A stretch of 64,000 nucleotides of DNA, from assembly GCA_030062745.1 (NCBI GenBank), contig CP099839.1, positions 34,691,293 to 34,755,292 of the forward strand, in the 5' to 3' direction. Position 1 is the first letter of the stretch; every line of letters starts with the position of its first letter. The position numbers were made by a program, and so were the translations under genes. Source of the stretch: Capitulum mitella (taxonomy: Eukaryota; Arthropoda; Thecostraca; Pollicipedomorpha; Pollicipedidae). Positions 4,099 through 64,000 of the stretch are shown here, piece after piece. The notes beneath the pieces are model-generated. The model had not been told where the DNA came from, searched no databases, and worked only from the letters and a program-made list of their open reading frames with translations.

Positions 4099-4102
4099 TT
4101 AA

Positions 4103-5291
4103 CCCTATTCCCGGAGGGCTAGACGGTATGGTCGATTCCCGACGGGGGGGGGGCGGATTCGGCCCCCCCCCTGAGATCTCGAGAACTATACATCCGATTT
4201 CATCGCAACAAACGGCAATCGATTTGCCATGACGTGAACTACATTTTTACAAAACGAAACCTTCAAAATTTTGAAAGGTGTGGATACAAGGGAGCAAAAA
4301 TGTCAAAATCAGTGGTATTTTTGGACTTCATGTAACTCCGTTGTTTATAGACCGATTTCGATGAAACTGGCATGAATCGAGAGATTATGGATAGGACTTT
4401 TATCATTGGTACACACATTTGAAATTTGGAGAAAATTCATGGGCGTTCACAAATCTCAAAAATATGAGGATTAGTTTTCTAGCAACTGAATGAACAAAAA
4501 AGGCCAAAGACACTTTTTTGGCTTTTGATGGTCATGTTATGCTAAAGAAGTACAAATTGAATTACAATGTTTGTATAACGTTAGCATAGGCGGTGCCAGG
4601 GACATGAAAAAGGGGAACTGTCATGGTCACACGTTCTTCAGATCAGCTTGTGACTTTTGACCTTAAGTGACCTCCAGTGACCTTGAAGTCACTTGGAATG
4701 ATCTCGTGTGCATTTAATATTGTCTGTAAACGTTTTCAATCATTTGAATTCACTCTATTTCAAAAAATTCATTTTATGGCTATTGCGATATAGGGTACGC
4801 GCACTGACATTTTAGGTCATAGCTCCGTGACCCGAGCTGATGTCAAGCTGAAACTTGATACACAAGTAGAGAGCACCTTTCTACGTCATATATATTCCAG
4901 ATTTGGCATTTCAGAAAACAGCGCCGAAATTATTGCGATGAAACCAAATTTTGACTTTTGACCTTGACCTGACGTTGTAAAGTGACCTTAGATGGCATAA
5001 TGAATGCTAATGATTATGAACAAAATGATATCTGCACATTGCCAAACTATTAAGCTATACATCCATACAAAGTTTTAAGTTTTATCTTAAAAACGCTGTT
5101 TTTGGCAGACATTTTCCTTTTCCCTTCAACATGGCCAAAAATGACTGAGGTGCCTCCCAAAAACGTTGCCTGGCTCCGCCACTGAGCAAAATAGAAGTCA
5201 ATAAGTTTCGTGAAGCTGCGTTAAGAAGCCTGGAATTGGCAAGCAAAAAACCCGAGGGGGGCGGATTCAGCCCTCTCTGCCGGGAATAGGG
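4103..5291 (+). mobile_element. TA1-A, complete TTAA-bounded element
   Basis: A 1189-bp element flanked by TTAA at 4099-4102 and 5292-5295. It begins CCCTATTCCCGG and ends with the inverse CCGGGAATAGGG, so terminal inverted repeats are evident. Just inside the left end sits a G-run facing a C-run (4144-4172) followed by TGAGATCTCGAGAAC. The flanks join into continuous minisatellite when the element and one TTAA are removed. There is no coding capacity. TTAA duplication plus CCC ends is the known pattern of piggyBac-type elements; assignment to that superfamily is inference because no transposase is present. Confidence 0.88.
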
Positions 5292-5295
5292 TTAA

Positions 5296-11300: not shown

Positions 11301-12080
11301 CCGATGCTATAAAATTTTCTGCTGTACCATATCGAATTAATGGTTATATGTCGGATTTTATGACAGACGCCAGAAATATCCATCGTACAGGCGTCAACGG
11401 CTTAACCTAGCTTGACCCTGTTTTATTTTAATATAATAATTGCGGACTTCATATGCCTGCCAGACACATTTACGGTGTACTCCGGTCATGACACATACTT
11501 ATACATTCAGGGAAATGGGATTCCCGCCCGTACAAGAAAGCGATTTTGCATCCATTTGCCCTTTCCCTTAAAATGGTCCAATGCGGCCTTAAGTACCCTT
11601 TCCCGCCCTACATAGGCACTTACATCAGGGCTTCTTTTTACTGTTAACACCCTTTACAGCTACGTAGAAGCCTTGGCTATCAAAGTTGTCAACAGAGTAA
11701 TATCAACAGGGCAATTTAAAATATCAACATGGTAAAATATAAAATATAACAAATACATGTATACAAAATATACCAGCATTATCAATAGCGTGCTCTGACC
11801 TTTGATAACCTCTGATGACTTTGATATTGGCCCTATTTTTGCAAGTCGACATGCTCTCTACTGGTTTCGTCAAGGGTTTTCCAACCGTAATTTCTCCTTG
11901 TTCTTTGGGACTTATAGTTCTTGAGACCTTGGGGGTATTCATGAACCTCCCCGGCCCAGTGAAGGTGTCTCCGGAGGTCGGCTTGGCGAGGGTTAATCTG
12001 ACACTTTGGCTATGCTCATAAACCATTGCCCCTATTTCCCGAAATATATCCAGATTGGAATGATGCAAACACCACACTGC
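8400..12080. other. no gene recognised
   Basis: About 3.7 kb of mixed-composition DNA. Small open frames near 8727-9005, 9550-9738 and 10509-10727 show no domain, splice structure or repeat relationship that I recognise. Confidence 0.5.
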
Positions 12081-13849: not shown

Positions 13850-13995
13850 GTCGTCTGGTAGTTGCCATGTTCGCCTTGTGGCCGGAAGACCCTTGGTTCG
13901 AGTCAGGGCAATGGCGACATTTCGCCGTCCCCCGCGACAACCGGCGTGAAGAGTTGCGAAGCGAAATGACCCTGGCAGTAGAGAGCGTTGTTTAA
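13850..13995 (+). repeat. tRNA-derived SINE (SINE-A), copy 1, interrupted
   Basis: A tRNA-like head with a box-A-like TGGTAGTTGCC and box-B GGTTCGAGTC is followed by a shared body (TTTCGCCGTCCCCCGCGACA, GGCGTGAAGAGTTGCGA, TGACCCTGGCAG). It matches the copy at 32315-32497. Its tail is cut at TTAA 13992-13995 by TA2-a. The sequence after the matching TTAA at 15206-15235 resembles the missing A/C-rich tail. Confidence 0.75.
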
Positions 13996-15205
13996 CCTGT
14001 GCCCGACTGGCAGTCGGCGCCATGCACGCCCGACTGGGGGTGGATGGGTGATTGACACCTCCCTAACTTGCGAACAGTTGGTCGCACGATAAAAAAGCAC
14101 ACCGCTGGAAACCTCGTGACAAATAGACATCGAAACTGGTTTCATTTTTAATTTTGGATAACATGTAACCCATGTACGCCCTATATATGTTTTCTCATAG
14201 CCGAATTCATGAGGCCGAGAAACGGCCTGGATCTCAAGGACTGTGACTAATAAAGTCTAGGTAAAGGCACCAGCGAACAAGTGCAAGCCTGCAGATGTCC
14301 ATATACGTCTAATTTCTCTGATCTGTTTAATATATACGCTGAAACGTTAAGTTCGACGCGGCGGTTTTCGCATCGCTCCATGGCGGGCGCCGTAACCGAA
14401 CGCGGTATGGAATTAACGCGAGTTAATTTAAGCGTTCATTTATTTTCACGAAGTAAGCCTGTCTAAGCAATGCTGTTTAATTCTAGCGGTTTTCGTGATT
14501 GTTTCTCGTGCTAAAATGTTGGAAAACTTAGTAGTTGTCAATCTTCTTAGCTGGTGAGGCTTTATTCGCGACGGCCTGCTTATTTCCAAAATATGCAATT
14601 TTTGAAGCTTTTCAACTTCCTGGTATTATTCACAGCTGCACAAGCCAGTTCTGCCATTTTCTACTCGATTTGAGTCAGTCATCGTCGATTTCGATCAAAG
14701 TGCATTTTGGCTCTTAACTGTTATATGTGACCTGACCTCAGGTCAGTGGTTGGTGGCCACTGGAACTTTGTGCATTGGCGGAAACTGGATGTCTGCATGT
14801 TCCCATAATCAAACTGTTGTTAAAAATTCCCGTCAGTTCCCGAAAAAAAACGATGACATGCCATGAAAACGGGGTTCACCTTGGATCAATGACCCAGAAA
14901 TTTCCGAAGAATCTGAAATAGCAGATCTGTAGTATTTATCAAAATATCCAATCCTTGAAAGTTTCATTGTGGTATCATATTTCCCGGCAAAAATACTGAG
15001 CGCTGATCTTTTTGGACATAGGTCCACTTGACCTGACTTAGGTCGTACGCTTGACTTGATTTGGGATCAAAAATTTGATACAGGATGTAACAAGGATCAA
15101 CTAAAAGGTACACAAAATTTGATGGCACTGTATTTGTCCGTTCTCTTGTGATCTCGGAAAAACGCCAGGGGGTGGCCATCCGCCCTCCCCCCCGGTCGGG
15201 GCGGG
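13996..15205 (-). mobile_element. TA2-a, complete TTAA-bounded element
   Basis: A 1210-bp element with TTAA at 13992-13995 and 15206-15209. On the plus strand it is the reverse complement of TA2-e (55479-56697). The right plus-strand end CCCGGTCGGGGCGGG is the element's left end. Conserved internal landmarks include the TGACCTCAGGTCA cluster near 14735, AAATGGCAGAACTGGC in inverse form, and TATATA-GGGCG in inverse form. It is inserted in the tail of a SINE. No coding capacity. Confidence 0.85.
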
Positions 15206-15229
15206 TTAATGACCCAATAACCAACCGAT

Positions 15230-17175: not shown

Positions 17176-17179
17176 TTAA

Positions 17180-18383
17180 CCCACCCCGATTGCGGGGAGG
17201 TGGTTGACCACGTCTGCAGAGGTTTTTCCAGCATTGCGGAAGAACAAACCAACGCATCACCATGAAACTCTGTGTACATTTTTCCTGATCATTTTTACAC
17301 TTTGTGTCAAAGCTTTGATCTCCGGTCAAGTCAGGCATTTAACCTAGGTCAGGTCAAGTGGACATATGTCCAAAAACGTTTAGCGCCCTGTAACTTTTTC
17401 GGAAAACATAATATCGCAATAAGCCTTTCAGGGATTAAAGATTTTTATGAATACAAGGAACCTGCTTTCTCAGATTTTTTCGTTATTTTCCGGGTCATTG
17501 GCCTAAAGTCATGCCCATTTTTACGATATGTCTTTTTCGGGATTGGACGGAGCTTTTAATAATTTTCTTAGTATGAGGTGATACGGACACCCCTTTACTG
17601 TCGGTGGACAAGTTATCAATGACTTCCAGCCATTGACGTGAGGTCAGGTCACGAATGACTGTTACGAGCCAAAATGCACCGCCGTCGAAATCGGCCGTTT
17701 TTTTTACCCAGAACGGGTAGAAAATGGCAGAACTGGCTCGTACAGTTGCGAGTAATACCAAGAAAATCAAAAAGTTTCGAAAAATTGCGTGTTTTAGAAA
17801 TAAGCAGACTCCCGCAAATAAAGCTCCACCAATCGTGCAGATTGATGACTACTGAATTTGTCCGAAATTTAAATATAAGGAATCATCAAAAGACTCACTA
17901 GGCTTAAGAAATGTTAATGGAAACGCCTATATCCCGAAAAATAAAGATACGCTAAATTTAGTCCTCCTTAATTCCGTACCGCGTACGGCTACGGCGCCCG
18001 CCGGCAGTTGGCGAGAAAATCGCCGTGTCTTTGACTCAATATTGCGGCGTATATATTAAAAGAAAATGGGAGAAATTAGGCGTGTTTCGGCATCTGCGAA
18101 CTTTACCTTTTTATTGGTGCCTCTACCTAGACTCATTAATCACAGCTTTTGACATCCATGTCGCTTCTCGGTTTCATGCAGTCGGCGGTGAGAAAACATA
18201 GATATGGCGTAAATAACTTACATATTATCCAAAACTTAAAATAAAACCAGTTTCCAGCCCTACCTCCCGGGAGCTTTTCAACGTTGTGCTTATTTTTTGT
18301 CGTGCGACCAGCCGTTCCTGAGTTAGAGGGGGTGGTCAACCCCCCTCTAAACGTGATCAGCGCCGATTGCCAGTCGGCGCGGG
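17180..18383 (+). mobile_element. TA2-b, TTAA element inside a LINE
   Basis: A 1204-bp element starting CCCACCCCGATTGCGGGG and ending GTCGGCGCGGG. TTAA lies at 17176-17179 and the decayed CTAA at 18384-18387. Interior matches TA2-e throughout (AGGTCAGGTCAAG near 17345, GAGGTCAGGTCACGAAT near 17640, AAAATGGCAGAACTGGC near 17720, TTTAACTCG-like and TATATTAAA near 18040). Removing it with one TTAA restores a continuous LINE frame across the junction. No coding capacity. Confidence 0.88.
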
Positions 18384-18387
18384 CTAA

Positions 18388-22386: not shown

Positions 22387-22390
22387 TTGA

Positions 22391-22809
22391 CCCTATTCCC
22401 GGCAGGGGGAGGGCTGAATTCGCCCCCCTCGGGTTTTTTGCTTGCCAATTCCAGGGTTTTTGGCGTAGCTTCACAAAACTTGGTGACTTTTCCTAGCTAT
22501 TCTTTTTACGTGCTGTGACAAAATTTCAAAGTTCTATTTGGCTCAGGGGCGGAGCCAGGCAACGTTTTTGAGAGGCACCTCAGGCTATTTTGGCCATGTT
22601 GAGGGTAAAAGGAAAATGTCTGCCAAAAACAACGTTTTTACGATGGAACTTAAAACTTTATATAAATGAATAGCAAAATAGTTGGGCAATGTGCAGATAT
22701 AATTTTGTTTGTCTGAGGTCACTTTACAAGGCCAGGTCAAGGTCAAAAGTCAAAATTTGTTTTTTTGCAATAATTTTTGCGCTGTTTTTTTTCAAATGCC
22801 AAACCTGAA

Positions 22810-22883
<74 letters not shown>

Positions 22884-23660
22884 CGTAAAAAGGTGCCCTC
22901 TACTTGTGTATCAAGTTCCAGTTTGATATCAGGTTGGGTCACGGAGCTATGACCTAAAATGTCAATGCGCGTACCCTATATCGCAATAGCCATAAAATGA
23001 AATTTTTTAAATAGAGTGAATTCAAATGATTGAAAACGTTCACAGATAATATCAAATCCACAAGAGATCATCCAAAATGACTCCAAGGTCACTGGAGGTC
23101 ATTTAAGGTAAAACGTCGGAAGTTGATCTAAAAAACGTGTGACTATGACAGTTCCCCCTTTTTCATGTCCCTGGCACCGCCTATGCTAACATTATACAAA
23201 CATCGTAATGCGATTTGTACTTCTTTAGCATAACATGACTAGCAGAAGCAAAAAAAGTGTTTTTGCCTTTTTTGTTCATTCAGTTGTTAAAAAACTAATC
23301 CTCCTATTTTTGAAACCCTGTGAACGCCCATGAATTTTCTCAAAATTTCAGATGTGTGTACCAATGGTAAAAGTCTCATCCATAATCTCTCGATCCATGC
23401 CAGTTTCATCGAAATCGGTCCATAAACAACGGAGTTATGACAAGTCCAAAAATGCCCCCCATTTTGACATTTTTGCCCCCTGTATCCACACCTTTGAAAA
23501 TTTTCAAAGTTTCGTTTTATGAAAATGTAGTTCACGTCATGGTCAATCGATCGCCGTTTGTTGCGATGAAATCGGATGTGTAGTTTTTGAGATCTCGGGG
23601 GGGGGCCGAATCCGCCCCTGCCGGGAATCGACCATACCGTTTAGCCCTCCGGGAATAGGG
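22391..23660 (-). mobile_element. TA1-B, complete element nested in TA1-F
   Basis: Starts CCCTATTCCCGGCAGGGG and ends CCCTCCGGGAATAGGG. TTGA (decayed TTAA) at 22387-22390 and TTAA at 23661-23664. It is the inverse of TA1-A over its full length. The GGGCCGAATCCGCCCC hairpin and GAGATCTCG lie at the right (element-left) end. It carries a long TA microsatellite that TA1-A and TA1-E lack. No coding capacity. Confidence 0.88.
22808..22881. repeat. (TA)n microsatellite inside TA1-B
   Basis: About 35 TA units. At the same position TA1-A and TA1-E have only CATATATATTCC, so the run grew inside this copy. Confidence 0.95.
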
Positions 23661-23664
23661 TTAA

Positions 23665-29162: not shown

Positions 29163-30348
29163 CGGGGAGCGACTGACCGCCGCCTGAGGTTTTTCCAAGA
29201 TCGCAATAGAACCAACAAACACAGCGCCACCAAACTTTCTGTATCTTTTGCTTTAGTGTTTTTACGCCTTGCATCAAATTTTTGATCTCAGGTCATGTAA
29301 GGTGTCTGACCTAGGTAATGTCAAATAGACCAATGTCCAAAGAAAAGTTTAGCGCCCTGTAACATTATCGCAAAACACGATATCAAAACAAAACTTTCAT
29401 GGGTTAGAAATTTTGATAAATGCAGCAAATCTGCTATCTCAGTCTTTCAGAGATGTTCGGGTCATTGACCTAAGGTCAAGCCCGTTTTCAACAGAGGTCG
29501 TCGTTTTTTTTCGAAAATTGACGAAATTTTTTTTAAAAACAATTTGAGTGTGGGGAGATCCAGACATCCAATTTCCGCCAATGAGTAAAGTTTCAACCAC
29601 CTCCGGCCACTGACTTGAGGTCAGGTCACGAATAACTGTTGCGAGTCAAAATGCACTGCCAACAAAATCGGCGATGAATGACTCAGATCGGATTGAAAAT
29701 GGCAGAACTGGCTCGCACAGGTGCAAGTAATACCAAGAAGTTCAAAAAATTTCAAAAATTGCATATTTTGGGAACAAACAGACTTTTGCGAATAAAGCTT
29801 CGCCAATTGTGTAGATTGATAACTACTGAGTTTTCCAAATTTAAGCATGAGAAATCATCCCAAGAACCAATGGGATCAAAAAACAACAACTGAAGTGACA
29901 TATTTCGCGAAAGTAAAAGAACACTTAAATTACTTCCCGTTAATTTCATACCGCTTTTGTCGACGGCGCCCACCGACAGCGTTGCGAAAATCACCGTGTC
30001 TTTAACTCAACGTCTCCGTGTACATATTAAAAAAATCAGAGAAATAAGAAGTGTGTCGGCATCTGCGGACTTTTACCTGTCCGCTGGTGCCTTTATCTAC
30101 ACGTTATTAGTCGCAGCCCTTGGAATTAAGGTCGTTTCTCCGTTTCATGCAGGCGGCTATGAGAAACCATATATAGGGCGTAAATGGCTTGCATATTATC
30201 CAAAACTAAACATGGGACCAATTCCCAGCTCTACTCGTCACCAGCTTTCCGACAGTGTGCTTATTTTTATCGTGTGACTAACTGTTGGTGAGTTAGAGGG
30301 GGCGGTCAACGCCCCCCCCCCCGCTAGTCGAGCGTGCATGGCCCAGGG
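29163..30348 (+). mobile_element. TA2-c, TTAA-bounded element
   Basis: A 1186-bp element with TTAA at 29159-29162 and TTAC at 30349-30352. It begins CGGGGAGCGACTGACC and ends GTGCATGGCCCAGGG. It shares with TA2-e the CCTGAGGTTTTTCC block, TTGACCTAAGGTCAAGCCC near 29465, GAGGTCAGGTCACGAATAAC near 29620, AAAATGGCAGAACTGGC near 29697 and the TATATAGGGCGTAAAT block near 30170. The subterminal hairpin at the right (GGGGGCGGTCAACGCCCCCC) is complete. No coding capacity. Confidence 0.85.
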
Positions 30349-30725: not shown

Positions 30726-30733
30726 TAGGTTTA

Positions 30734-31264
30734 CCCGTCCCCGACTGGGGGCAGTTGACTCCTCCCCTGAGGTTTTTCTGGCATTGCGAGAGAACCAACA
30801 AACACAGAGTCAGTCCTAACGCTTTTAGGGGAAGACGGATTCGCCTGAGTGTCTCAGGAGTGACAGAATGCAATAAACGCAACAACTTGTATATCTCGGA
30901 TTTTTTGGGGAAAATGGATTGCCATTTTGATGACCTGGTGCCAGGACACTTTTGGGTTTTTCTTTAGATTTGGTTCCTCAGCTATCGTCAAAAACATGGC
31001 TAATGGCATATGTTACCATCATATTAAAAGAACACGCGTGACTTTGGCTCAGGTCATGACCTCCGATATGGGTAATTGTTTCCCGCAGCACAAAAAAAAT
31101 TTTGCTGCGTGAAAAAACAGCTGGTGTGTACGACTGGCGTAAGACAAGGCACTGAAAGCTTGTTGCTGACAAAAAACCTGAAAAATCGGATATCTCCTAA
31201 ACAAAAAGTTGTGCTTATCTGTTTAGGAGATATCTCATAATGCCTCGGGGGGGGGGGGCGGGCA
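30734..31264 (+). mobile_element. TA2-f, short TTAA-bounded derivative
   Basis: Starts CCCGTCCCCGACTGGGGG after TTTA (30730-30733), with the TA2 left-end block through GCGAGAGAACCAACAAACAC. The interior then differs from TA2. It ends with a long G-run and GGGCA against TTAA 31265-31268. That TTAA is also the left boundary of TA1-C. No coding capacity. Confidence 0.55.
31189..31234. other. perfect 15-bp stem hairpin
   Basis: GATATCTCCTAAACA (31189-31203) pairs perfectly with TGTTTAGGAGATATC (31220-31234) across a 16-nt loop. It sits about 30 bp inside the right end of TA2-f. No U-tract follows, so a simple terminator is not indicated. Confidence 0.8.
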
Positions 31265-31268
31265 TTAA

Positions 31269-32664
31269 CCCTAATCCTGGAGGTCTAAATGGTATAGCCG
31301 ATTCCCGACAGGGGGTGGATTCGCCCCCTCCTCTGAGATCTCGAGAACTTCTCATTCGATTTCTTTGCAACAAGAAACAATCGACTCTCTATGACGTAAA
31401 CTACGTTTTTATGAACAAAGTTTTGAAAATCTCGAAAAGGTGGATACAAGGGGCAAAAAAGTCAAGATAGAGATATTTGTTATTTGCCATAACTCCGTTG
31501 TTTATGGACTAATCTTGCTGGAACTGGCACAAATCGAGAGCTCATCGATAGGACTTTCCCCATTTGTCCATACGTAAGGAATTCAGGGAAAATTGATAGG
31601 CGCTCACGGGGTTTCGAAAATGGAAGGAAAACTTCTTAAAAAAACAGATTCAGTAGACAAGTTTAAAATACTTCGCTATTTCTTTACTCATGTAATACTT
31701 AAGAAGTACGGATCTTGTTACATTGTTTGTATAATGCTAGCAAAGGCGGCGCCAGGGACATGAAGAAACGAGAAATGTCATAGTCGCATGTTCTTCAGGT
31801 CAACTTACGACCTTTGACCCTAAACGATCCCAAATGACCTCAGTGTCACATGAAATGACCTCGAGCTCATTTCATAGTGTTTGAAAACGTTTCCAATAAT
31901 TTGGATTCGCTATATTTCTAAACATCCTGTTTATGGCTGTCGTGATATAGGGTACGGTCACGAACATTTTAGGTCATGGCTCAGTGACCCGACCTAATAT
32001 AATACTGAAGCTTGATGCACAGGTAGAGGGCACTCTTAAGTTTCATGAACTCTGGATTTTGCATTATAAGAAATAACACCAAAAATATTCGCCTAAAACA
32101 AAATTTCGAGTTCTGACTGACCATTCAAAATGACGCTAAATTAACAAAATTGTTTTTCTATGCTTGCCCAGCTGTTTATCTATAAACCGTATGAGCTTTG
32201 AAGCCCTATCTTAAAACCCTACATTTGGCAACCATTTTTTGTCTGCCTTCAGCAGTGCCAAAAAATCTCCTGAGATACTTCCCAAAAACTTAGCCTTACT
32301 CCACTCCTGAACAAGAGGTTGGCGTAACGTAGTGGTTACCACGCTCGCCTTGTGGCCGAAAGGTCCCCGGTTCGAGTCCGCGTAATAGCAACGTTTCGCC
32401 GTCCCTCGCGACAACTGGCGTGAAAGGTTGCGACGCGAGATGACCCAGGCAGTCGAGAGCATCGTCAAATAATCCAAGAACCAAATCAAAGCAACCACTT
32501 CTGAACAACACAAAATTACGAAAATTTGACGCGGTACGTAGAAACAATAGGTAGGAAAGTTTACAAAGTTCCTTGAAGCAGCTTGAAATCCCTGGAGTTG
32601 GCAAGCAAAAAAAAATGGAGTAGGCGGATTCCGCCCCCCCCCCCCTCCGCTGCCGGGAATAGGA
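31269..32664 (+). mobile_element. TA1-C, TTAA-bounded element carrying a SINE
   Basis: Starts CCCTAATCCTGGAGG and ends CCGGGAATAGGA between TTAA 31265-31268 and TTAA 32665-32668. It matches TA1-A in order: GAGATCTCGAGAAC, the GGCGCCAGGGACATG block, CATTTTAGGTCATGGCTC, and the CCAAAAACTTAGCC block. It is longer than TA1-A mainly because of the SINE at 32315-32497. No coding capacity. Confidence 0.85.
32315..32497 (+). repeat. tRNA-derived SINE (SINE-A), copy 2, with target duplication
   Basis: Head GGCGTAACGTAGTGGTTACC with box B GGTTCGAGTCC, then the body shared with 13850-13995 (TTTCGCCGTCCCTCGCGACA, GGCGTGAAAGGTTGCGACG). The flanks CTCCTGAACAA (32304-32314) and CTTCTGAACAA (32498-32508) form an 11-bp target duplication with one mismatch. 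The internal pol III promoter boxes explain transcription; movement would need a partner LINE. Confidence 0.82.
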
Positions 32665-32982
32665 TTAAACGTCCCCCGTCAATGGTGGGTTAACCGCGTG
32701 CATTGGTCATCCCAGCCATTGTAAAATTGCGTTCGTTTCCGTTTCCTTGCTTTATATATTGTATTTAATTTATCAGTGTAAGTAATTTGGGGGCAAACCT
32801 ACTTTCGTGGAGTCTCCCATGGGAACTAAACTTGCTTTGGATTCATTACGGAAAATAACATTTGAAAAAAGGTCGACAAAAATTATTAACTTTATTAACT
32901 GAGTCATTCGTCCGTCGTGACTAAAAACAGCAGTTTTCAGTCACAACAGTCACAATGGCTTCTTGATTTACTCATCGGTCAT

Positions 32983-33311: not shown

Positions 33312-34025
33312 CACGCGCACTGAAAGGAGGGCACTTTTTTGCCACCCACCTGCTTTTCTTGAAAATCTCGAGAACGGGACGGAGCTGGTCTCTGCTACTT
33401 TGTGACATTTATGACAATTCAATATCCCGCCGATTGACGGAAAAAAGTTGAAAATCGGCCAGAAATTTTTGAAGTCTAAAGCACTTATACTCAAACAAAT
33501 ATAACGAAAACAGATACCGCTGACAGATGGGAACTTTGGGAAAGGACTAGCGTTCTACGTAAGATTACCATTTGAACATAATCGACTGACATCATTTGGG
33601 CAGAAGTGATGGATGTACTAAGACCAAAGCCAGAGTCTATAAAGGTCAGGGCCATCAAAAGTGAAGGTCAGCTAGCTTGCAACTTGATTCAGATTTATTT
33701 TACAATATGTCGGTTTGTCTGAAAAATGCATTCGAAGACCAGAATCAGTAAGGATCAAGGCCATCAAAGGTCAAGGTCAATCAGCTTATGACCTGATCCA
33801 GATCTGCTTTGCAACATGTCGGTTTGTACGAAAAATGCATTCAAACGCCCTAATAGAAACATGTTTGCGCACATTGAGACGCTTATTTGTACCAGGGTCA
33901 GTGAAAGTCAATGTCATCAAAGGTGAAGGTCAACTATCTTGTGACGTGATCCAGATTTTCTTTGCGACATGTCGATTTGTGTGAAATATGCATTCAAAGA
34001 GCAGAATAAAAACACATTTGACGCA
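33312..34025 (-). mobile_element. TA3, copy 2 (partial)
   Basis: Begins after TTAA 33308-33311 with CACGCGCACTGAAAGGAGGG and a G/C-run hairpin (GGGCACTTTTTTGCCACCC). It is the inverse of 45519 down to about 44700, including three AGGTCA-containing tandem units (GGTCAAGGTCA, TGACCTGATCCAGAT, CATGTCGGTTTGT). The far end is lost in AT-rich DNA near 34030. Confidence 0.7.
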
Positions 34026-34027
34026 TT

Positions 34028-34095
34028 GATAAGTTTATAATATATATTATAATATACATTAAATATATAGTATATCCATACATATATAATTTCTA
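34028..34095. repeat. AT-rich low-complexity run
   Basis: Irregular TATA/ATAT DNA bordering TA3 copy 2. Confidence 0.8.
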
Positions 34096-34216
34096 CGTTT
34101 TGCAACAATAAAATCATGTAATCGTGTTCCTTATAATGCAATTACTTAAGCTCAAACAGTTAACATAAAACCTACTTTGGATCAAAGACTTCATCCACGG
34201 TCAATGACCTCGCTCC

Positions 34217-34495
34217 ACCTCTTTTATTACTATTTTTTTATTTTCACCTCTTTTATTATTAAATAACCTTACGGATTATTCTTTGTTATTACAGATTTAT
34301 AGAGGTCCGTAAACGCTGGAAGTGATCAAATGTACTAATGTTGGCTATCTCTACTGAAAATACGCTAACACATGCGTTTAGCGCCCTTTTTCACCTCTTT
34401 TATCCTTGCGGACGTCCGTAAACGCTGGAAGTGATCAAATGTACCAATGCTGGCTATCGTCACTGAAAATACGCTGAGGGATGCGTTTCGCGTCT
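34217..34495. repeat. 109-bp tandem duplication
   Basis: GTCCGTAAACGCTGGAAGTG and the 70 bp after it occur at 34305 and 34414. The preceding TCACCTCTTTTAT is also repeated (34217, 34242, 34391). Confidence 0.75.
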
Positions 34496-34499
34496 ATTC

Positions 34500-35081
34500 T
34501 AGATTAACTAAATGTCTTGTCAACAATGTCATAACTAAATGTCTGCTTCACTCCACACTGGAAATGCTATGAAAAATTCCGCCAATTTCCGCAAAAACGA
34601 CGACGTGTTAAAAATGGGCTTGCCCTTAGGTCAGTGACACAGAAAATTCCTTAAAACCTGAGACAGCGGATTTGTTGTATCTATCAAGATCACTAAACCC
34701 TGTAAGTATTATTGTGATATCTTTTTTTCCGAAAAAGTTACAGGGCGCTAAACTTTTTTGGACATAGGTACGTTTGACCTGACCTAGGTCAGACATCTGA
34801 CTTGATCTGAGGTCAAAACTTTGACACAAGGTGTAAAATGATGAAGCAAAAGGTACACAAAGTTTCGTGGCCCTGTGTTTGTTCGTTCTCTCGCAATCCC
34901 AGAAAAAACCTCAGGTTATTCAGGTTACTCACGTTTGATTGATACTTTGTCCAAAGACGGTAACTAGATGTCTGCTTCACTCTACACTGGAAATGTTATA
35001 AAAATTCCGCCAATCTCCGAAAAAACGACGACATGTGTTAAAAATGGTCAGCTGCACCCCACAGTCGGGGGCAGGGGTTGG
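34500..35081 (-). mobile_element. TA2-d, rearranged TTAA element end
   Basis: Inverse TA2 sequence from ATGTCTGCTTCACTCCACAC through GACCTGACCTAGGTCAGAC to AAAAACCTCAG. Part of it (ATGTCTGCTTCACTCTACAC ... ACGACGACATGTG) is then repeated at 34970-35045, followed by the terminal CAGTCGGGGGCAGGGGTTGG against TTAA 35082-35085. The other half of the element is missing. It has therefore had an internal duplication and a deletion. Confidence 0.65.
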
Positions 35082-40284: not shown

Positions 40285-41374
40285 ACCAAAAGAAGTTTTC
40301 AGAATGTTGAAAGGGGTGGATACGGGAGGCAAAAAAACAAAATGGGGAATATTTTTAGACTTGTTATAGCTCTACTGTTCATGGACCGATTTTGATGAAA
40401 TTATGGAGAACTTTTCCATTTGTACATATGTTGGAAATTTTCAAAAAAATTCATACGCGTTCACAGGGTTTTAAAAATAGGAAGATTAATCTTCCAAAAA
40501 CTGAATTAACAAGAAAGTTAAAATTACTTTTTTACCTTTGGCTAGTTATGTCATGCTTAAGATCTACAAGTAACATTACATTGTCCATATAATGTTTGCA
40601 AAGGCGGTGCGAGGGTCATAAAAAGGGGAACTGTCATAGGCCAGGTCATCTCACGACCTTTGACCTTAAATTATCTCCAGTGACCTTGGAGTCACGTAGA
40701 ATGATCTTGTGTGCATTTGATATCGTTTAAAAACATTTCCAGTCATTTGAATGTACTCTATTTCTAAAATCCCTTTTTATGGCTGTCGTGATATAGGATA
40801 CGCACACTGACATTTTAGGTCATAGCTCCGTGACACGGAGTCACGTTGTTGATATCAACCTGGAACTTCTTACGTAAGTAAAGGACACTCTTTTACGTCA
40901 TATGTATTCTGGGTTTGACATTTGGATAAATAGCGCCAAAATTATCATTATGAAACCAAATTTTGAGTTTTTGACCTTGACCTGACCTTGCGGAATGATC
41001 TCAAATTAACAAAATCACGTTTGTATGCTTGCCCGACCATTTAGCTATGTTTATTATTTTATTTACGTAATATATATTATATTAAATACATGCCTGTATT
41101 TAGCTGTGCAACCATATCAAGTTTTAAGTTTTAAGTTCTGTCTTAAAAGCACTGTTTTTGGCAGCCATTTTCCTTTTAACTTCAATAGGGCCAGACGTGC
41201 CAGCCAAAAACGTTGTCCGACTCCGTCCATGAACAAAATAGGATTGCGAAATTTTGAAAAAATACGTAGAAAGAGTAGGTAAGAACAGTGTTTCGTGAAG
41301 CTGCGTCAAAAACCCCGGAAATGACAATTAGAAAACCCGAGGGGGGCGGATTCAGCCCCCTGCCGGGAATAAGG
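40285..41374 (+). mobile_element. TA1-D, 5'-truncated TTAA element
   Basis: Matches TA1-A from the GAATGTTGAAAGGGGTGGAT block to the right end TGCCGGGAATAAGG against TTAA 41375-41378. Landmarks: AAGGCGGTGCGAGGGTCAT, CATTTTAGGTCATAGCTCC, GAGGGGGGCGGATTCAGCCC. The left end with its hairpin is missing or too diverged. Confidence 0.78.
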
Positions 41375-41379
41375 TTAAA

Positions 41380-42572: not shown

Positions 42573-42730
42573 TCCAGACTGAGACTGACCAACAGGGGCA
42601 AGACTGTGACATCAACCCGGCACCGCCTGGCGTGTTTTAATAGCCGCGACCTCCAGACTGAGACTGACCAACAGTGGAAAGACTGTGACATCAACCCGGC
42701 ACCGCCTGGCGTGTTTTAATAGCCGCGACC
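42573..42730. repeat. 79-bp tandem duplication
   Basis: TCCAGACTGAGACTGACCAA at 42573 and 42652, with the following bases through TTTTAATAGCCGCGACC nearly identical. Recent duplication. Confidence 0.9.
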
Positions 42731-42734
42731 GCTT

Positions 42735-43600
42735 GGGGGCGTCAAAAATGGTATCCGCTCTTATCTCAGAATCTGACCGTCGGACCTGAACCGGTTTAGC
42801 ACCAACCGATAGCCATTAGTGTTGCGATTAAAAAAATACTATGTTAGCCCTGGTCACGTGACCGATAACGTCAAAGGGCACGTAAAACGCCTAACACGAT
42901 GTTGGAAAAGCTGGTATATGTTTGCACACCATATCACCGGCAATACTGGTCCTATAGCCTTCGACTGGGTATCAAACGAAATGCCACGATCTTCTGCATA
43001 AGACACCTGCCAAAATGTTAGAAATGCCGGGTCAGAGCAACCTAGGTCAGGTGAAGTAATGATCTTACTTTACACGCCAATCGATACTTGCAGCCGTTTT
43101 GATCCACGTGACAAAAGGACGGAAGTGAAATTTTATGATCAGTTTTGCACGACACTGGATAAGGTGCTGATTTTTGGTGTTCAAGAACACCGGGAAATAT
43201 GTGCTCCAAAAACGTTATATACTCCAAAAGTATGTTGTTATGCCTACACCAGAAAGCTGTATTATACCCATATTGACAAATTCCTAACTCTGCGCGCAAA
43301 AAAAACTTCTCCCTTCAGTAAGAAACAGGTATGATGTCATAACTGACTTACACAAAGGACGCCAGCTTAAACCACTGTTATTCTTTGCAAAGTTTTACAC
43401 TCCAAAACAAAAAATGTACTCCAGTACCAACAACAAACAACAATTCCCAACCCCGGTTTTGCACTTCCTGCTTTTCATCCAATCAAGGCCATTGTAGGTT
43501 AGGTCATTTGGCGTTGCATTACTCTTCTCGACACGAAGAAATAATTACTCGTGGGGATTCTTAACTGCGTCAAGCACAGAAGTGAAATGGCATCTCGTGA
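42735..43600. other. no gene recognised
   Basis: The only notable string is CAACCTAGGTCAGGTGAAG near 43040, an AGGTCA-type motif cluster. Confidence 0.4.
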
Positions 43601-43614
43601 TAACGAAATCTGCT

Positions 43615-44190
43615 CTGTCTTCTATTCATCAGGTCAAGGTCAAGCCAGGTCGGGACAGATAGTCATTTTTTCATTTTCTAACTAGGAGCAGTAATTGCTC
43701 TCTGCTGCTACTGAATGATCTTCCACAGACGATGCTGTATTTCATTTCGTTTTGACATTTACCTATTGCGTGACCCGGCATGACCTCAGATTGTATTTGG
43801 TGAACCTTGCTAAGAGGCGCAAACAGATCTGCTTGTCTGGTTTGAACGATGGAGTAAGTCAGCGGCAACCACTTCCATCAACCGCAATGCAAATCAGTCC
43901 AATTAAAAGCATGCATGTGACCCAGCATGACCTCTAATGTTGGCATGTCACGGTTGTATATCCTTTTCATGACCGTGTTCGAAGTAAATCCAAATAGTTA
44001 ATGAATTATATCCGCGAATATTATAACACAAACGAAGCATGTTCGCGCCACCGCCCGAAAAGGCGAAAACATGCATACAAGGGTTCACCTGTTATGCCAT
44101 ATCTCCATGACCTGACCTGGCATGGAAATGGTTTTGAAGTCAAAACGTGTAAAATCGATTGATGAGCAGGTAATGAAAATCGATTGAGCT
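43615..44190. repeat. AGGTCA-rich repeat of unknown family
   Basis: Contains CAGGTCAAGGTCAAGCCAGG, CCCGGCATGACCTCAG, CCCAGCATGACCTC and CATGACCTGACCTGGCATGG at irregular spacing. It resembles TA-type interiors but no TTAA-bounded ends are resolved. Confidence 0.45.
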
Positions 44191-44197
44191 GACTTAA

Positions 44198-45519
44198 CCC
44201 GCGCAATGGAAGGGGGTTTCGCGCTGACGCGTACTGGAATGGAGGGCACAAAAGTCCCCCCTCCGATCTCGGAAACAGCAGGAGCTAGAGACGTGAAATT
44301 TTGTGGACGGATTGGGGTCATATCGATTTACATTGTGTGCAATTTTCACGACACTAGATTAATATCTTCAAAGTCAAATGGGGTGTAAAATGTCAGCTTT
44401 GGAAACTTTCTCGGCCCATACAGGCCATTCCGTAGGACTTTTCGAACGGAACGGGAAAAGGGTGTTTGTTTGGGCGTCAAAACGTGGAATACGACAACTT
44501 CCATTCATTTTGCGTCTTGGCGGAGGGTTTCGAGTCGAGGTCATGTCAGGTCATTGACCTACAACGTCGTTTTTTCATCTTTTGCAGATCAGATTTCGAG
44601 AAACACGGGAAAGCTTGAGTGTAAATAACGACGCCACATGCACCTTTTGGCGTGTTTTCAGTGAAGGTAGCCAACCTTGGTACATCTGGTCACTTCCAGC
44701 GTTTACATTTATACATGTATGTACACGTATATATGTATATACATGTGAGTATCAATGTGCCAAACGTGTTTTTAGTAGGGTCCTTGAATGCATATTTCAT
44801 ATAAACCGACATATTGCAAAGCAAATCAGGACCAAGTCACACAGAAAATGGCCCCTGACCTTCCATGACACTGGCCCGAAATGATCCTGGTATATATAAG
44901 CTTGTTCACGTGCACACACGTGTTTTTATTAGAGTCTTTGAATGCATATTTCATACAAATCGACATGTCACAAAACAAATCTGGACCAGGTCACAAGATA
45001 TTTTGCCTTGACCTTTAATGACCTTGACCTTCACAGACCCTAGTATATGTCAACGTATCAGTGTGCGCACACGTGTTTGTATTAGAGTCTTTGTATGCAT
45101 ATTTCATACAAATCGACATGTTGCAAAACAAATCTGGATCAGGTCACAAGTTGTTTGGCCTTGACCTTTGATGACCCTTACTGACCCTGGCTTTGGTTTT
45201 GGTGCACCCATCACCTATGCCCGAATGACGTCGCGTGATTGTGTTCAAACGGTAATCTTAGGTAGACCGCTGGTTCTTTCACAAAGTTCCCATTTGTCAA
45301 CGACAACCGTCGTTTTCGTTATGTTTGCCTGACTTCAAATGCTTGAAACTTCAAAAATTTCCGGCCGATTTTCGATTTTTCTGTGTCAATCGACGAGTTA
45401 TTCAATTGCCATAAGTGTCAGAGAGTAGCAGCTACCAGCTCCAATCCGTTCTTGAGGTATTCAAGAAAAACAGGTGGGGTGGGGGGGGGGGCACAAAAAG
45501 ACCCCCTTCCAGTGCGCGT
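44198..45519 (+). mobile_element. TA3, copy 1, TTAA-bounded
   Basis: Left TTAA 44194-44197 followed by CCCGCGCAATGGAAGGGGG and a GGGCACAAAAGTCCCCCC hairpin. The right side carries the inverse (GGGGGCACAAAAAGACCCCC, TTCCAGTGCGCG) ending near 45519 with a decayed TATTGA. The interior holds three 153-bp tandem units (about 44735-45190), each with CAAATCGACATGT, AGGTCACAAG and TTGACCTTTGATGACC variants. No coding capacity. Confidence 0.7.
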
Positions 45520-46508
45520 ATTGAGAGCTCAGAAGTTATTCGAGAAAAACAGAGGGGGTGACCTATTTGGACCCCCCCAGTCGGTGCCGGGTAACTGTCG
45601 ACTGCTGGTGCCAATGGCACGTAGTCATGTAACTCTGCAAGACTGTAGTCTTGCTCATTTTCTGGAAGCTCATGGCGGTTCTGTCCGGCGACATCGTCCG
45701 CGTCATCATCGGAACTAGGTGAATAAGAGCGGCTTGCATCAGCTGCCTCCGTATCACCCGTCTGACACTTTTCACTGCTATCATCGTCGTCATCTGCATC
45801 CCCTTCGGTCAGCTGCCTTTCCTCAGGATCGTGCTGCCTGATCTTCTGTCTCTTTTCCGCTAGTTTCATACGTTTCCCCATTCTCTTCTGCCTTCGGACA
45901 TTTTCCTCAGTTGTCTTCCGGTCAACGCCGCCTATGTAGAACTTTCTCTCTCCTCGCTGGTCTTTGAGGAAAGCTACTTCTTGAGCTGGCACCCTTTTAG
46001 AAGCTGGGCACGTGCCACAGGGGACATCAGCAAGATCGCATCGGCACCACATGATGTCAAATAAGCCATAGTACTCTCGCTGCATACTCACGAACTTTCG
46101 ACCCTTGCCCCGTTCGCGTTTCGAAGACCATTTCATGAGGTTCTTCCCCGTTATGGCCAGTCTTTCTACATTCTGAATTATCGTGTTCTCCGAAATAACA
46201 TTTGGCATCTCTCTCTCGGTCTTACCCGACGTGCCACCCATTTGAGACGCCTCTCCGTCGTCCACTGGTACCCACGTAATAAGATTGGCTCTGGCCCAGA
46301 TGGCTACTATGGTATCCTTCACTGCTTTTGCCATTTCTCGTTTTGTCGGCTTCTTTCCAGAAGGAGTTGTCCTTTCATTCCGTGTCTTCACGTAAAAGGC
46401 ATACACTTCTCTTTTCCACGGCAGCTGGTTTATGGGAAGAGCGTCCGGGCCTGTTTGCAGCAAAGGGTGTTTTGTTCTCTGTCTTGTTGATGGTCCTGGA
46501 TTACTCAT
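45432..46508 (-). CDS. intact 358-codon intronless ORF with Cys cluster, unknown function
   Basis: The ATG at 46508 has A at -3 and an in-frame TGA ten codons upstream. The protein has a basic N-terminus with LPWKREVYAFYV (29-40), KPTKREMAKAVKDTIVAIWA (63-82), a conserved-looking FDIMWCRCDLADVPCGTC (150-167) with C155, C157, C164 and C167, then VAFLKDQRGERKFYIGGVDR (178-197), a basic helix rich in K and R (200-225) and an acidic low-complexity tail (235-275). From memory this layout resembles an uncharacterised single-exon family scattered in invertebrate genomes; I can give no name. The Cys set could bind metal (inference). From about residue 305 the frame runs into a TA2-like end, so the last 53 residues are probably not original. 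Coding looks real because the frame is long in moderate-GC DNA and composition is ordered. It may be TE-derived or host. Confidence 0.7.
   Translation of the reverse strand: MSNPGPSTRQRTKHPLLQTGPDALPINQLPWKREVYAFYVKTRNERTTPSGKKPTKREMAKAVKDTIVAIWARANLITWVPVDDGEASQMGGTSGKTEREMPNVISENTIIQNVERLAITGKNLMKWSSKRERGKGRKFVSMQREYYGLFDIMWCRCDLADVPCGTCPASKRVPAQEVAFLKDQRGERKFYIGGVDRKTTEENVRRQKRMGKRMKLAEKRQKIRQHDPEERQLTEGDADDDDDSSEKCQTGDTEAADASRSYSPSSDDDADDVAGQNRHELPENEQDYSLAELHDYVPLAPAVDSYPAPTGGVQIGHPLCFSRITSELSIRALEGGLFVPPPPPHLFFLNTSRTDWSW
45520..45591 (-). mobile_element. TA2-like element end adjoining the orphan CDS
   Basis: Read on the minus strand, CCCGGCACCGACTGGGGGGG resembles the TA2 start CCCGTCCCCGACTGGGGGG and is preceded by TTAC, a decayed TTAA. 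It is followed by a G/C-run region and then the TA3 end. Confidence 0.5.
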
Positions 46509-46519
46509 TTTAGCCCAGT

Positions 46520-47640: not shown

Positions 47641-47644
47641 ACTG

Positions 47645-49566: not shown

Positions 49567-49726
49567 CCTGGTGCCTGTAAAAATACAAATCCATTGAATT
49601 TTGTCCGAAATTCTAAACTTTTTCCTTTTGCTAAATTGGTTTCTGGGACAGCTGGCGAATCCAGGAAAGGCCATCTCGGCCACGCCCCCTCCCAACCGCG
49701 ATGGGAGGGAGGAAAATAGCCATTAA

Positions 49727-50933
49727 CCCTATTCCCGGAGGGCTGGACGGTATCGTCGATTCCCGGCAGGGGGGCGGATTCGGCCCCCCTGAGATCTCGA
49801 GAACTACTTGTCCGATTTCATCGCAACAAACGGCAATCGATTTCCCGTAACGTGAACTACATTTTTATAGAAATAAATTTTTGAAAATTTTGAAATTTGT
49901 GGATACAGGGGGGCAAAAATGTCAAAATGGGGGGTACTTTTGGACTTCTTATAAGTCCGTTGTTCATCCACCGATTTCGATGAAACTGGCATGAGTCGAG
50001 AGATTATGGATAGGGCTTTTACCATGGGTCCGCAAATCTGAAATTTTGAGAAAATTCATGGGCGTTCGCAGGGTTTCAAAAATAGAAGGATTAGTTTTGT
50101 AACAACTGAATGAACAAAAGAGGCATACACCTTTTTTTGGCTTCTGCTGGTCAATTTATATTAAAGAAGTAGAAACCGCATTACAATGTTGGTACAATGT
50201 TAGCATAGGCGGTGCCAGGGACATGAAAAAGGGGGACCTGTCATGGTCACACGTTTCTCAGATCAACTTATGACCTTTGACCTTAAATGACCTCCAGTGA
50301 CCTTGGGGTCACTTGGAATGATCTCGTGTGCATTTAGTATTATATGTAAACGTTTTCAATCATTTGAATTCACTCTATTTCAAAAATTTCATTTTATGGC
50401 TATTGCGATATAGGGTACGCGCACTAACATTTAAGGTCATAGCTCCGTGACCCGACCTGATATCAAGCTGAAACTTGGTAAACAAGTAGAGGGCACCCTG
50501 CTACGTCATATATATTCCGGGTTTGGCATTTGAAAAAACGGCGCCGAAATAATTGCAAAAAAACAAATTTTGACTTTTGGCCTCGACCTGGCCTTGTAAA
50601 ATGACCTCAGATAAACAAAATTACATCTGCACATTGCCCAACTGTTAAGCTATACATACATATAGAGGTTTTAAGTTCTATCTTTAAAACTTTGTTTTTG
50701 GCAGGCATTTTCCTTTTACCATCACCATGGCCAAAAATGGAATGAGGCGCCTCCCAAAAACGTTGCCTGACTCCGCCCCTGAGCAAAATAGAATTTCGAA
50801 ATTTTGTCATGGCGCGTAGAAAGAATAGCTAGGAAAAGTGACCACGTTTCGTGAAGCTGCGTTAAAAAGCCTGGAATTGACAAGCAAAAAACCCGAAGGG
50901 GGGCGGATTCAGCCCCCCCTTCCGGGAATAGGG
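49727..50933 (+). mobile_element. TA1-E, nearly complete TTAA element
   Basis: Left TTAA 49723-49726, start CCCTATTCCCGGAGGGCTGG, hairpin GGGGGGCGGATTCGGCCCCCC, GAGATCTCGAGAAC. The interior follows TA1-A closely. It ends CTTCCGGGAATAGGGG near 50933, but the expected TTAA is absent and a different CG-rich sequence starts at once. No coding capacity. Confidence 0.85.
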
Positions 50934-55470: not shown

Positions 55471-55478
55471 TACTTTAA

Positions 55479-56697
55479 CCCGTCCCCGACTGGGGGGGGG
55501 GGCAGTTGACTGCCCCCCTGAGGTTTTTCTGGGATTGCGAGAGAACGAACTAACACAGAGTCACAAAACTTTGTGTACCTTTTGCTCCATCAATTTTACG
55601 TCTCGTGTCAAAATTTTGACCTCAGGCCAGGTCAGGTTTCTGACCTAGACCAGGTCAAACAGACCTATGTCCAAAAAAGTTTAGCGCCCTCTAACCTTTT
55701 CGCAAAACATGATATCTCAATAATACTTTCAGGAATTAGTGATCGTGATAGATGCAACAAATCTGCTATCTCGGATTTTTCGGAATTTTCCGGGTCATTG
55801 ACCTAAGGTCAAGCCCATTTTTAAGAGATATCGCCGTTTTTTTCTGAAACTGACGAAATATTTCATCACATTTTTAGTGTGGAGTGAAGCAGACATCTAG
55901 TTACCTTCATTGGGCAAAGTATCAGTGACTTCCAGCCATTGACCTGAGGTCAGGTCACGAATAACTGAAGTGGGCCAAAATGTACCACCGTCAAAATCGA
56001 CGATGAATTACTCAGAATGGGTAGAAAATGGCAGAACTAGCTTGCGCAGACGTAATTAATACCAGGAACCTCAAAAAGTTTGAAAAAGTAGCATATTTTG
56101 GAAATAAACAGGCTCTCGCGAATAAAGCTCCGCCAACTTTTTAGATTGGCAACTAATCAATTTTCCCAAAATTTAAGCATGAGAAACCATCACAAGAACC
56201 ACAGAGATCAATAAAATTTACATAGATCGTCTTTTTTCGCAAAAATAAAGGAACGCTAAAATTAGTTCCCGTCAAATTGGTACCGCATACGGCAGCGGCG
56301 CACAGTGACGACTGACGGGAGAATTACGGTGTCTTTAACTCGACGTTTCGGCGTATATATTGAACAAATCTGAGGAAATTAGACGTGTATCGGCATCCAC
56401 GGACATTCACTTGTGCGCTGGTGCCTTTACCTATGCGTTATTAGTCACAGCCCTTGAGATTCAGGCCATTTCTCGGTCTCATGCAGAAGGCTATGAGAAA
56501 ACATATATAGGGCGTAAATTGCTTACATATTATCTAAAACTAAAAATGAGACCAGTTTCGAGCTCTACTCGTCACAAGCTTTCCAACAGTGTGCTTATTT
56601 TTATCGTACGACCAACCGTTCGTAAGTTAGAGGGGGGGGCGAGTCAACTGCCCCCCCAGTCGCCGGTGTTCGGGGCGGACCGACGGTCGTGCGCGGG
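55479..56697 (+). mobile_element. TA2-e, complete TTAA-bounded element (reference copy)
   Basis: 1219 bp between TTAA 55475-55478 and TTAA 56698-56701. Left end CCCGTCCCCGACTGGGG, then the hairpin GGGGGGCAGTTGACTGCCCC and TGAGGTTTTTC. The right end has GAGTCAACTGCCCCCCCAGT and GTGCGCGGG. Nuclear-receptor-type hexamers are clustered at about 55618-55660 (two TGACCT, two AGGTCA), 55798-55812 (TGACCTAAGGTCA) and 55940-55958 (TGACCTGAGGTCAGGTCA). No coding capacity. Confidence 0.9.
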
Positions 56698-56784
56698 TTA
56701 AAACAGTCAGAATGCGGTCTGGCAAATAACACTTTGTCCCCAATGCGGTGCCATTGTTTTTCTAGAAACCACGATGTGAAGTGT

Positions 56785-62954: not shown

Positions 62955-64000
62955 CACTGGTGAATCGCAGCTTGCAAACGTCAGATGTTCACGTGCGGGT
63001 TTCAGTCACAAACAACCGGTGCAGACTAGGCGAGGAGGTCCCATGCTTTCTGCCGGCGTTGTTTTTCTACGGATTTTCAACACCAGACGTTTCAGAAGCT
63101 CGGGTTCAGAACACGCTGTCTTCCCGGAATAAATAGTCCCCACTCCCCCAAATACTGCACCCGCATCCGAAAATGTACCACTTTTCTGAAATGACTATTC
63201 TTTAACTACTCAAAAACAAGCCATGCTATTCATCGTGGCACTTAGCGTCGTCAGAGGCACCAAGAACGAATTTGGAGTATTCTTATTTCGCATGAAGAAA
63301 GCAATGACCTTGCCATTCCTGGCTCGAACTGGTTCATTCACACATGCGAACGTCTAGTATTTTAATGCGGTGACATTTCGCCCCCCACAATGCACCAATG
63401 TTCCGATCTCACGCAGTTTACAATATTGAAGCATTTTCAATAAGACTGTACCAGTTTTACTTCCTAAATGGGCACTTGACCCGGCATTGAATAGGGTATT
63501 TTGCCACCTTCCAATAACTGTGGGGGGGTGGCCTTTAACGCCACCCCCGACTATTCTAGGGAACAATTAGTCCAATTCGGTTAATTTAAACGCCAGTCGA
63601 TAGTGCCGAACCTTGCGGTCCTATGACGTATACATTTTTACTTTTGGGTCACTGATGACGTCGTAGGCTAGGTCGCACACGAAAAAGTGACCATTTCCTC
63701 CACAGTCGCCAAATCACAATGAACACAGGCCGAGACTGAAGTTTGCGTGGTGTTCCTGGTATATTTCAATATTGTCTTACTCTCATATTTTAAGTACCCT
63801 CTCACCCAAAGTTATAAAAAGTCAATGCCACAGCTTGGGCGAAATTTGACCTCCGTTATAACGTGTCATGCAGTGCATTTTTCCGGGCCTATTTGACACG
63901 GTGCCTTTAAAAAAGACACTTTCAGAGGCCCTTGCACACAAAAAAAACTTCAAATCTTGAAATGGCTTACTTATCGTAGACACGCAACATTGCAACATTT
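62955..64000. other. no gene recognised; G/C-run hairpin at 63524-63548
   Basis: GGGGGTGGC (63524-63532) pairs with GCCACCCCC (63540-63548) over a 7-nt loop. This is the same design as the subterminal hairpins of the TA families, so it may be the worn end of another TTAA-type element. Confidence 0.4.

Follow-up and report, generated by a model that had tools for sequence, protein, structure and literature searches.

Asymmetric palindromic ends in four TTAA element families of Capitulum mitella, probable non-autonomous relatives of piggyBac

Introduction

The piggyBac element of the moth Trichoplusia ni, a widely used gene-transfer tool, has two unequal ends, LE35 and RE63. According to the sections of the structural paper drawn on here, RE63 differs from LE35 by an insertion and a duplication, with RE bp 34–63 almost identical to LE bp 7–35; the transposase binds the palindromic internal repeat in double-stranded form, through a dimer of its C-terminal cysteine-rich domain; and the asymmetry of the ends is termed puzzling and enigmatic (PMC7351741). 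The distance between palindrome and piggyBac tip is 3 bp at one end and 31 bp at the other in the consulted part of a second source, which also describes the human MER85 palindrome, located 3 bp inside the tip and required for strong PGBD3 binding (its loss cut binding by 80%) (PMC3459987). In the portion of the literature on piggyBat used here, that element is without the piggyBac end pattern (PMC11707139); therefore, the asymmetric layout is not universal.

The TTAA target is also used by Kolobok elements, whose ends are given as 5′-RR (RR/YY) in the relevant section of PMC9587614; T2-MITE termini read AGGRR in the extract of PMC6004289 used here. Subterminal repeats in hairpin or cruciform form are discussed in part of a preprint on PGBD5 (PMC12324416).

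Here we describe four families of TTAA elements, TA1–TA4, in the genome of Capitulum mitella. We consider them very probably to be non-autonomous, MITE-like members of the piggyBac superfamily, whose G-run/C-run hairpin corresponds to the piggyBac palindromic internal repeat.

Results

Elements in the window

The window, i.e. the whole stretch of 64,000 nt that was analysed, occupies positions 34691293–34755292 of contig 1 in a 477-Mb genome of 16 contigs. In what follows, the end with the palindrome close to the tip is called near and the other end far. The features, in window coordinates, are:

55475..56701, plus strand: TA2 element, 1227 bp, TTAA at both ends, near end on the left
55492..55518, no strand: near palindrome of this TA2 element, G-run starting at bp 14 after TTAA
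56632..56657, no strand: far palindrome of this TA2 element (an inverted G/C repeat), G-run from bp 41
13992..15209, minus strand: older TA2 copy, about 74% identical
17176..18387, plus strand: older TA2 copy, near stem GTGG-TTGA-CCAC
29164..30318, plus strand: TA2 copy, left (CCC) tip gone
30730..30812, plus strand: TA2 fragment, left end
34532..35047, minus strand: TA2 fragments
4099..5295, plus strand: TA1 element, far end on the left (palindrome 4144–4171), near end on the right (palindrome about 5256–5275)
22387..23664, minus strand: TA1 copy
31265..32668, plus strand: TA1 copy, diverged
40285..41378, plus strand: TA1 copy, left end gone
49723..50933, plus strand: TA1 copy
44194..45524, plus strand: TA3 element nested in a TA4 copy, far palindrome 44241–44264, near palindrome about 45481–45506
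33340..34494, minus strand: second TA3 copy, incomplete
42693..45590, minus strand: TA4 element split by TA3, near palindrome 45554–45578
11990..11996, minus strand: further far-type end with a TTAA-CCC tip, G-run at bp 41 and then a C-run, arms of only 4, element extending leftwards
63476..63549, plus strand: another family, represented by a far-type end with the tip TTGA-CCC, a G-run at bp 43 and the arms GGGGGTGGC/GCCACCCCC

The TA2 element at 55475 starts with TTAA-CCC, carries a G-run from 55492 and the perfect inverted repeat GGGGGGCAG-TTGA-CTGCCCCCC at 55497–55518, and ends in GGGTTAA; its best scored genome copies are 95–96% identical over the full length. Element lengths are about 1.2 kb (TA1), 1.23 kb (TA2) and 1.33 kb (TA3), with direct as well as inverted copies in the window. 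Together TA1–TA3 make up 14,580 of the 64,000 window bases. A genome sample of 200,000 bases, taken from 20 fixed places, contains 14,168 bases of TA1 and TA2 and none of TA3. The fourth family, TA4 (1265 bp), was absent from the preliminary description and was discovered adjoining a TA2 copy in locus L004; the TA3 insertion point in the window TA4 copy is the TA4 near end. In the TA3 body, a 153-bp unit is repeated about three times head to tail (44735–45180).

The plan that the preliminary description had proposed for TA1, TA2 and TA3, namely TTAA-CCC followed by a G-run, a loop and a C-run, was confirmed at 4099, 49723, 31265 and 23664 (minus strand) for TA1, at 17176 and 15209 (minus strand) for TA2 and at 44194 for TA3. 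The positions given there were mostly those of the first base after TTAA, and the TA2 copy cited at 29163 has lost its CCC tip. The same plan had been noticed at right ends, where we find it too, with decay: the G-run is short at 5295, TTAA is lost or mutated at 50933 and 22387, and the right TTAA of TA3 (44194..45524) has mutated to TTGA. The doubtful example near 63524 is real; its arms, read by eye, are perfect over 9 bp.

Copy number and coding content

Genome searches returned 10120 first-look candidates for TA1 and 7136 for TA2, numbers that are unverified as copy counts, 40 candidates having been scored per search. Among those scored, the best copies are 82–88% (TA1) and 95–96% (TA2) identical to the window copy. 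Seven of 14 aligned TA2 copies are 97–98% identical to the majority sequence (six of the seven had been chosen as best matches); for TA1, 11 of 14 aligned copies are 87–96% identical to theirs.

The longest stop-free frame in the TA1–TA3 reference copies has 120 codons, so no long reading frame is present. High copy number (judged from the TA1 and TA2 candidates), terminal inverted repeats and the lack of a transposase gene agree with the definition of MITEs; a length of 1.2 kb is greater than usual for a MITE. Seven window frames gave no Pfam match above the cut-off, and the window contained no Rfam match at the gathering score and no tRNA. An open frame of 367 codons (45432–46535, minus strand), which contains MSNPGPSTRQRTKHPLL and adjoins the TA4 near end, matched no Pfam family above the cut-off; it is possibly a transposon or host protein.

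TTAA sites, tips and placement of the palindromes

Both ends of TA1, TA2 and TA3 lie at TTAA, start with CCC and contain a G-run/loop/C-run palindrome at one of two distances from the tip. For TA1 and TA2 ends whose TTAA is intact (one TA1 end that cross-matches TA2 left out), G-run starts fall at bp 13–15 at the near end (21/23) and at bp 40–45 at the far end (21/22). The far end is on the left in TA1 and TA3 and on the right in TA2. TA1 and TA2 show the TTAA target duplication and tips of piggyBac superfamily members, together with palindromes at both ends and an asymmetry of ∼28 bp, as in the T. ni element.

The tips are well preserved. In 20 TA1 copies, chosen by whole-element similarity, TTAA is kept in 36 of 40 ends and TTAACCC in 33; the latter occurs in 44 of 57 rows of TA1 and TA2 ends, truncated ends counted in. 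TTAA is present at both ends of the TA2 genome copies examined. Tips of the form CCY are generally the rule in the piggyBac superfamily. A Kolobok or T2-MITE origin would account for the TTAA target, yet the CCC termini of TA1 and TA2 are not the RR (AGGRR) termini of those elements and argue against it; we regard this origin as very improbable and rejected it. Sola3, another TTAA user, was considered as well.

The preliminary description had named two findings that would speak against a true hairpin: its presence in some copies only, and random slippage in G/C runs. As to the first, at least four Gs and then at least four Cs are found at 20/20 far ends and 18/20 near ends of the same similarity-chosen TA1 copies. 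When ends were anchored on the family loop (at most two substitutions tolerated; two TA2 near rows, one a TA1 end and the other a fragment that lacks an end, removed beforehand), the palindrome was located at 29 of 33 far and 32 of 32 near ends of TA1 and at 15 of 16 near and 14 of 14 far ends of TA2.

Run lengths do vary widely among copies (1–13 Gs and 1–11 Cs), as chance slippage would have it. Against slippage stand the fixed start positions, inner stems that are not homopolymers (CAG/CTG, CTG/CAG, GTGG/CCAC) and rarity at control tetramers: in the window plus the 200 kb sampled, a G-run of at least four at either of the two places (near or far) and then at least four Cs are seen at 29 of 2206 TTAA strand-sites, 25 of the 29 starting with CC, versus 23/7476 for other AT tetramers. 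Slippage as the source of the hairpins was therefore rejected, its probability being close to negligible.

A near-end segment repeated inside the far end

The far ends differ from the near ends in a specific way. The near segment recurs further in at the far end, displaced by 28, 27, 28 and 27 bp in TA1, TA2, TA3 and TA4, with 16/16, 16/16, 14/16 and 15/16 matching bases, respectively. The joint score is 60/64, and none of 300 shuffles exceeds 41; the 16-base windows may take in the G-run and palindrome, and TA3 and TA4 are represented by two copies and one copy. When only the bases before the G-run were compared in TA1–TA3, the joint score was 23/27, reached by 0 of 3000 shuffles. TA1 (9/9) and TA3 (8/9) match at offset 28; TA2, with its best match of 7/9 at offset 18, contributes little to this joint score.

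A scan for any repeated tip (9/10 bases) at 961 TTAA[CT][CTA] sites showed no clear offset peak (four sites at offset 27, three each at 25 and 29, one or two at others). Among the sites at offset 27 were TA4 in L004, which was discovered in this way, and L011:2108, a possible further far end. At the latter site the TTAA-CCC tip segment recurs at +27 ahead of a G-run, with no clear C-run; this is possibly the far end of another family.

Homology among the families

Over their first ∼120 bp, the near ends of TA2 and TA4 share 64% identity (E 1e-8); this stretch is homologous and, therefore, sequence is shared as well as shape. A TA1 profile matches TA2 near ends with E 0.003 for the best copy. 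In all four families, GTTTTT follows the near palindrome, and loose variants of ATCTCGAGAAC follow the far one. The bodies differ, and comparing them yields short matches only: weak ones in like order between TA1 and TA2 (E 0.08–0.23), and one of 62 bp on opposite strands between TA2 and TA3 (E 7e-4), within an AGGTCA-rich stretch. The preliminary picture of a common structural end on unrelated bodies thus holds as regards the common end and the different bodies, and has to be amended in that the ends share sequence too.

Like ends on unlike bodies would also arise if recombination or capture between similar ends moved them onto new bodies, which would make the families chimeras. The homology of the TA2 and TA4 near ends over ∼120 bp next to bodies with only short matches fits this idea, and two head-to-head TA2 copies with a single common TTAA (L005:1501–3944) are a possible substrate. 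No chimeric intermediate was seen, though, and the weak TA1/TA2 and TA2/TA3 body matches, together with the common AGGTCA content, leave common descent open. We consider a chimeric origin possible and somewhat less than even in probability; one ancestor with diverged bodies may be the alternative source of the common ends.

AGGTCA motifs in the bodies

On both strands of the consensus bodies, AGGTCA occurs 9 times in TA1 and 10 times each in TA2 and TA3, against 0.5–0.7 in shuffles (maxima 4–5), a 15- to 18-fold excess; TA4 has eight motifs, a count made without shuffles. In the sampled sequence, motif density is 5.3–7.1 per kb in the four families and 0.79 per kb outside them (about 7- to 9-fold). 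Before TA4 was masked, ten clusters with at least four AGGTCA each were located outside TA1–TA3, which argues against family specificity. Some of them (43501–44113, L017:9516–9916) fall in TA4 copies; others lie beyond all four families (e.g. 36022–36246, 47535–48213 and L028:6832–7666).

We take AGGTCA to be a nuclear receptor half-site. A functional array, bound by the transposase or by a host nuclear receptor while the remainder of the body is free to drift, is conceivable from the motif counts, and we hold it to be rather doubtful; if true, such binding would link hormone signalling to transposition or to the control of nearby genes.

Several other repeats and frames were observed. A tandem array of a 32-bp unit (35952–36335, about 98% alike in mid-array) contains an AGGTCA cluster. 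The frame at 10492–11055 (plus strand) has a weak, below-cut-off match to a nuclear-receptor zinc finger (E 0.0038). Tandem repeats of CCTAA type, presumably resembling the insect telomere motif, occur within the sampled stretches at L020:6414–7909 and L022:9318–9620.

Palindrome symmetry, folding and covariation

Dyad scores of TA1 and TA2 palindromes exceed those of shuffles at all four ends (reached by 0–2 of 400 shuffles); the TA3 palindromes are imperfect and do not stand out (165/400 and 200/400). Single-strand folding compared with dinucleotide shuffles was not decisive: just two of the eight ends reached z < −2.

Compensatory change, which the preliminary description had suggested looking for, was counted as double changes that keep a pair among the seven inner pairs, the loop serving as anchor. 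At the TA2 near end, eight double changes keeping Watson–Crick pairing were seen in 15 copies (shuffle mean 1.8, reached by 0 of 2000), and lengths of the G- and C-runs are correlated (rho 0.64, p 0.01). The other three sets of ends gave no excess: two changes in 14 copies at TA2 far (599 of 2000 shuffles reach this), three in 29 copies at TA1 far (744 of 2000) and none in 32 copies at TA1 near. Correlation of run lengths was likewise not significant at TA2 far (p 0.07), TA1 far and TA1 near. Since the shuffles ignore relatedness, the TA2 near covariation may partly mirror subfamilies.

We conclude that symmetry is maintained among TA2 subfamilies at the near end; a site for a dimer could account for this, as could template switching inside the palindrome. 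A folded hairpin may possibly be what is recognised. In the strict form of this idea, a transposase or host factor would read an extruded hairpin or cruciform and conserve its shape, not its sequence. The TA2 near-end covariation and run-length correlation speak for it, as does the discussion of such repeats in the PGBD5 preprint, as far as the part used here goes (PMC12324416). We judge it unlikely, given that neither signal is present at the three other end sets, that just two of eight ends fold better than shuffles and that subfamily history can mimic the one positive result.

Search for a transposase

Members of the piggyBac superfamily are generally mobilised by a DDD transposase with a C-terminal cysteine-rich domain and excised seamlessly. 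The DDE_Tnp_1_7 profile (PF13843) matched at least 118 stretches of the genome, some of them pieces of one element and several in open frames, with 116 of 267 candidates scored; the same profile found no match in 14 control genomes. Such matches occur in elements with TTAA-CCC tips. We opened 20 loci (14 at 3–3.6 kb and the 5′ flanks of six more, with 3′ flanks for four of these six). A TTAA-CCC or TTAA-CCT tip was seen in 14 of the 20, in five types, and no tip in the stretch read of the remaining six (L033, L040, L042, L044, L045 and L048). No opened locus, among these 20 of the at least 118 matched stretches, has a TA tip as its own end; thus, the autonomous piggyBac-like element with the same ends that the preliminary description envisaged was not found there, nor was a helper. 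In L044, the right half of a TA2 copy, its tip facing away from the transposase frame, lies just upstream of that frame; it was taken as an insertion.

The ends of these autonomous elements show TA-like features in places. One end of PB-H (L046) has a perfect palindrome at bp 15–34, and its other end (L049) has no like palindrome by eye. In PB-B, the tip segment is repeated at +26 in the right ends, with 8/10 bases in three copies and 6/10 in a fourth; PB-A ends have no repeat near +28. Dyad scores of PB-A, PB-B and PB-E ends are not above those of shuffles, and none of six autonomous ends scored exceeds 7/10 pairs at the near place, their scores being reached by 28–385 of 400 shuffles.

Locus L033 (C2:27089900–27093400) carries a reading frame of piggyBac type with 593 codons and no stop; its identity to PB-A is about 50%. 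Within the 3.5 kb read, no TTAA-CCC tip qualified as the end of an element; the frame is possibly a domesticated gene.

Discussion

Because the TA ends carry the two-part layout of piggyBac, the common G-run/C-run hairpin would most likely be the site where a transposase of piggyBac type normally docks. By analogy with LE35 and RE63, the near end would consist of tip and palindrome, and the far end of the tip, an insert repeating the tip segment 27–28 bp in, and then a like palindrome. The palindromes may be bound by a dimer of the C-terminal domain, as in the moth element, and a second, phased dimer would sit on the far end. Mobilisation would take place in trans: a piggyBac transposase from another source would bring a near and a far end together, cut the element out at TTAA and reinsert it at TTAA; one or several related transposases may provide this activity.

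The preliminary description had suggested that one transposase recognises the structure of the ends. A common or related piggyBac-type transposase is indeed our best reading, by analogy, of like ends on different bodies; recognition of structure as such fares worse, since the ends share sequence and covariation was seen at one of four end sets.

The 27–28 bp offset with a repeated tip segment in four families suggests that such ends recur for a functional reason, as a phased second site for the transposase, and are not peculiar to a single element. The literature surveyed, represented in part by excerpts, contains no report of a 28-bp offset across several non-autonomous families, a statement confined to that literature. 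TA1–TA4 offer natural variants for testing the asymmetric-end layout.

Three known systems are closest. Within the same genome, the PB-A, PB-B, PB-E, PB-G and PB-H elements share TTAA-CCC or CCT tips with the TA families, and the single palindrome of PB-H and the partial tip repeat of PB-B recall TA ends; they differ in their tip sequences and, in PB-A, in the missing repeat near +28. Like the TA families, MER85 of primates (with PGBD3) is non-autonomous, uses TTAA and has a palindrome just inside its tip, which in MER85 is bound by the transposase; as presented in the consulted part of the source, it has a single palindrome on the 5′ side, whereas the TA families have one at both ends (PMC3459987). 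The T. ni piggyBac element differs from the TA families in sequence, in the long G- and C-runs that form the TA arms and in the transposase gene that the TA families lack. In the parts of its description drawn on here, it nevertheless shares with TA1–TA4 the TTAA target, a short tip, a palindromic internal repeat at both ends and an inserted repeat of the tip segment at one end, and its distance difference of 28 bp is matched by TA1–TA4 to within a base.
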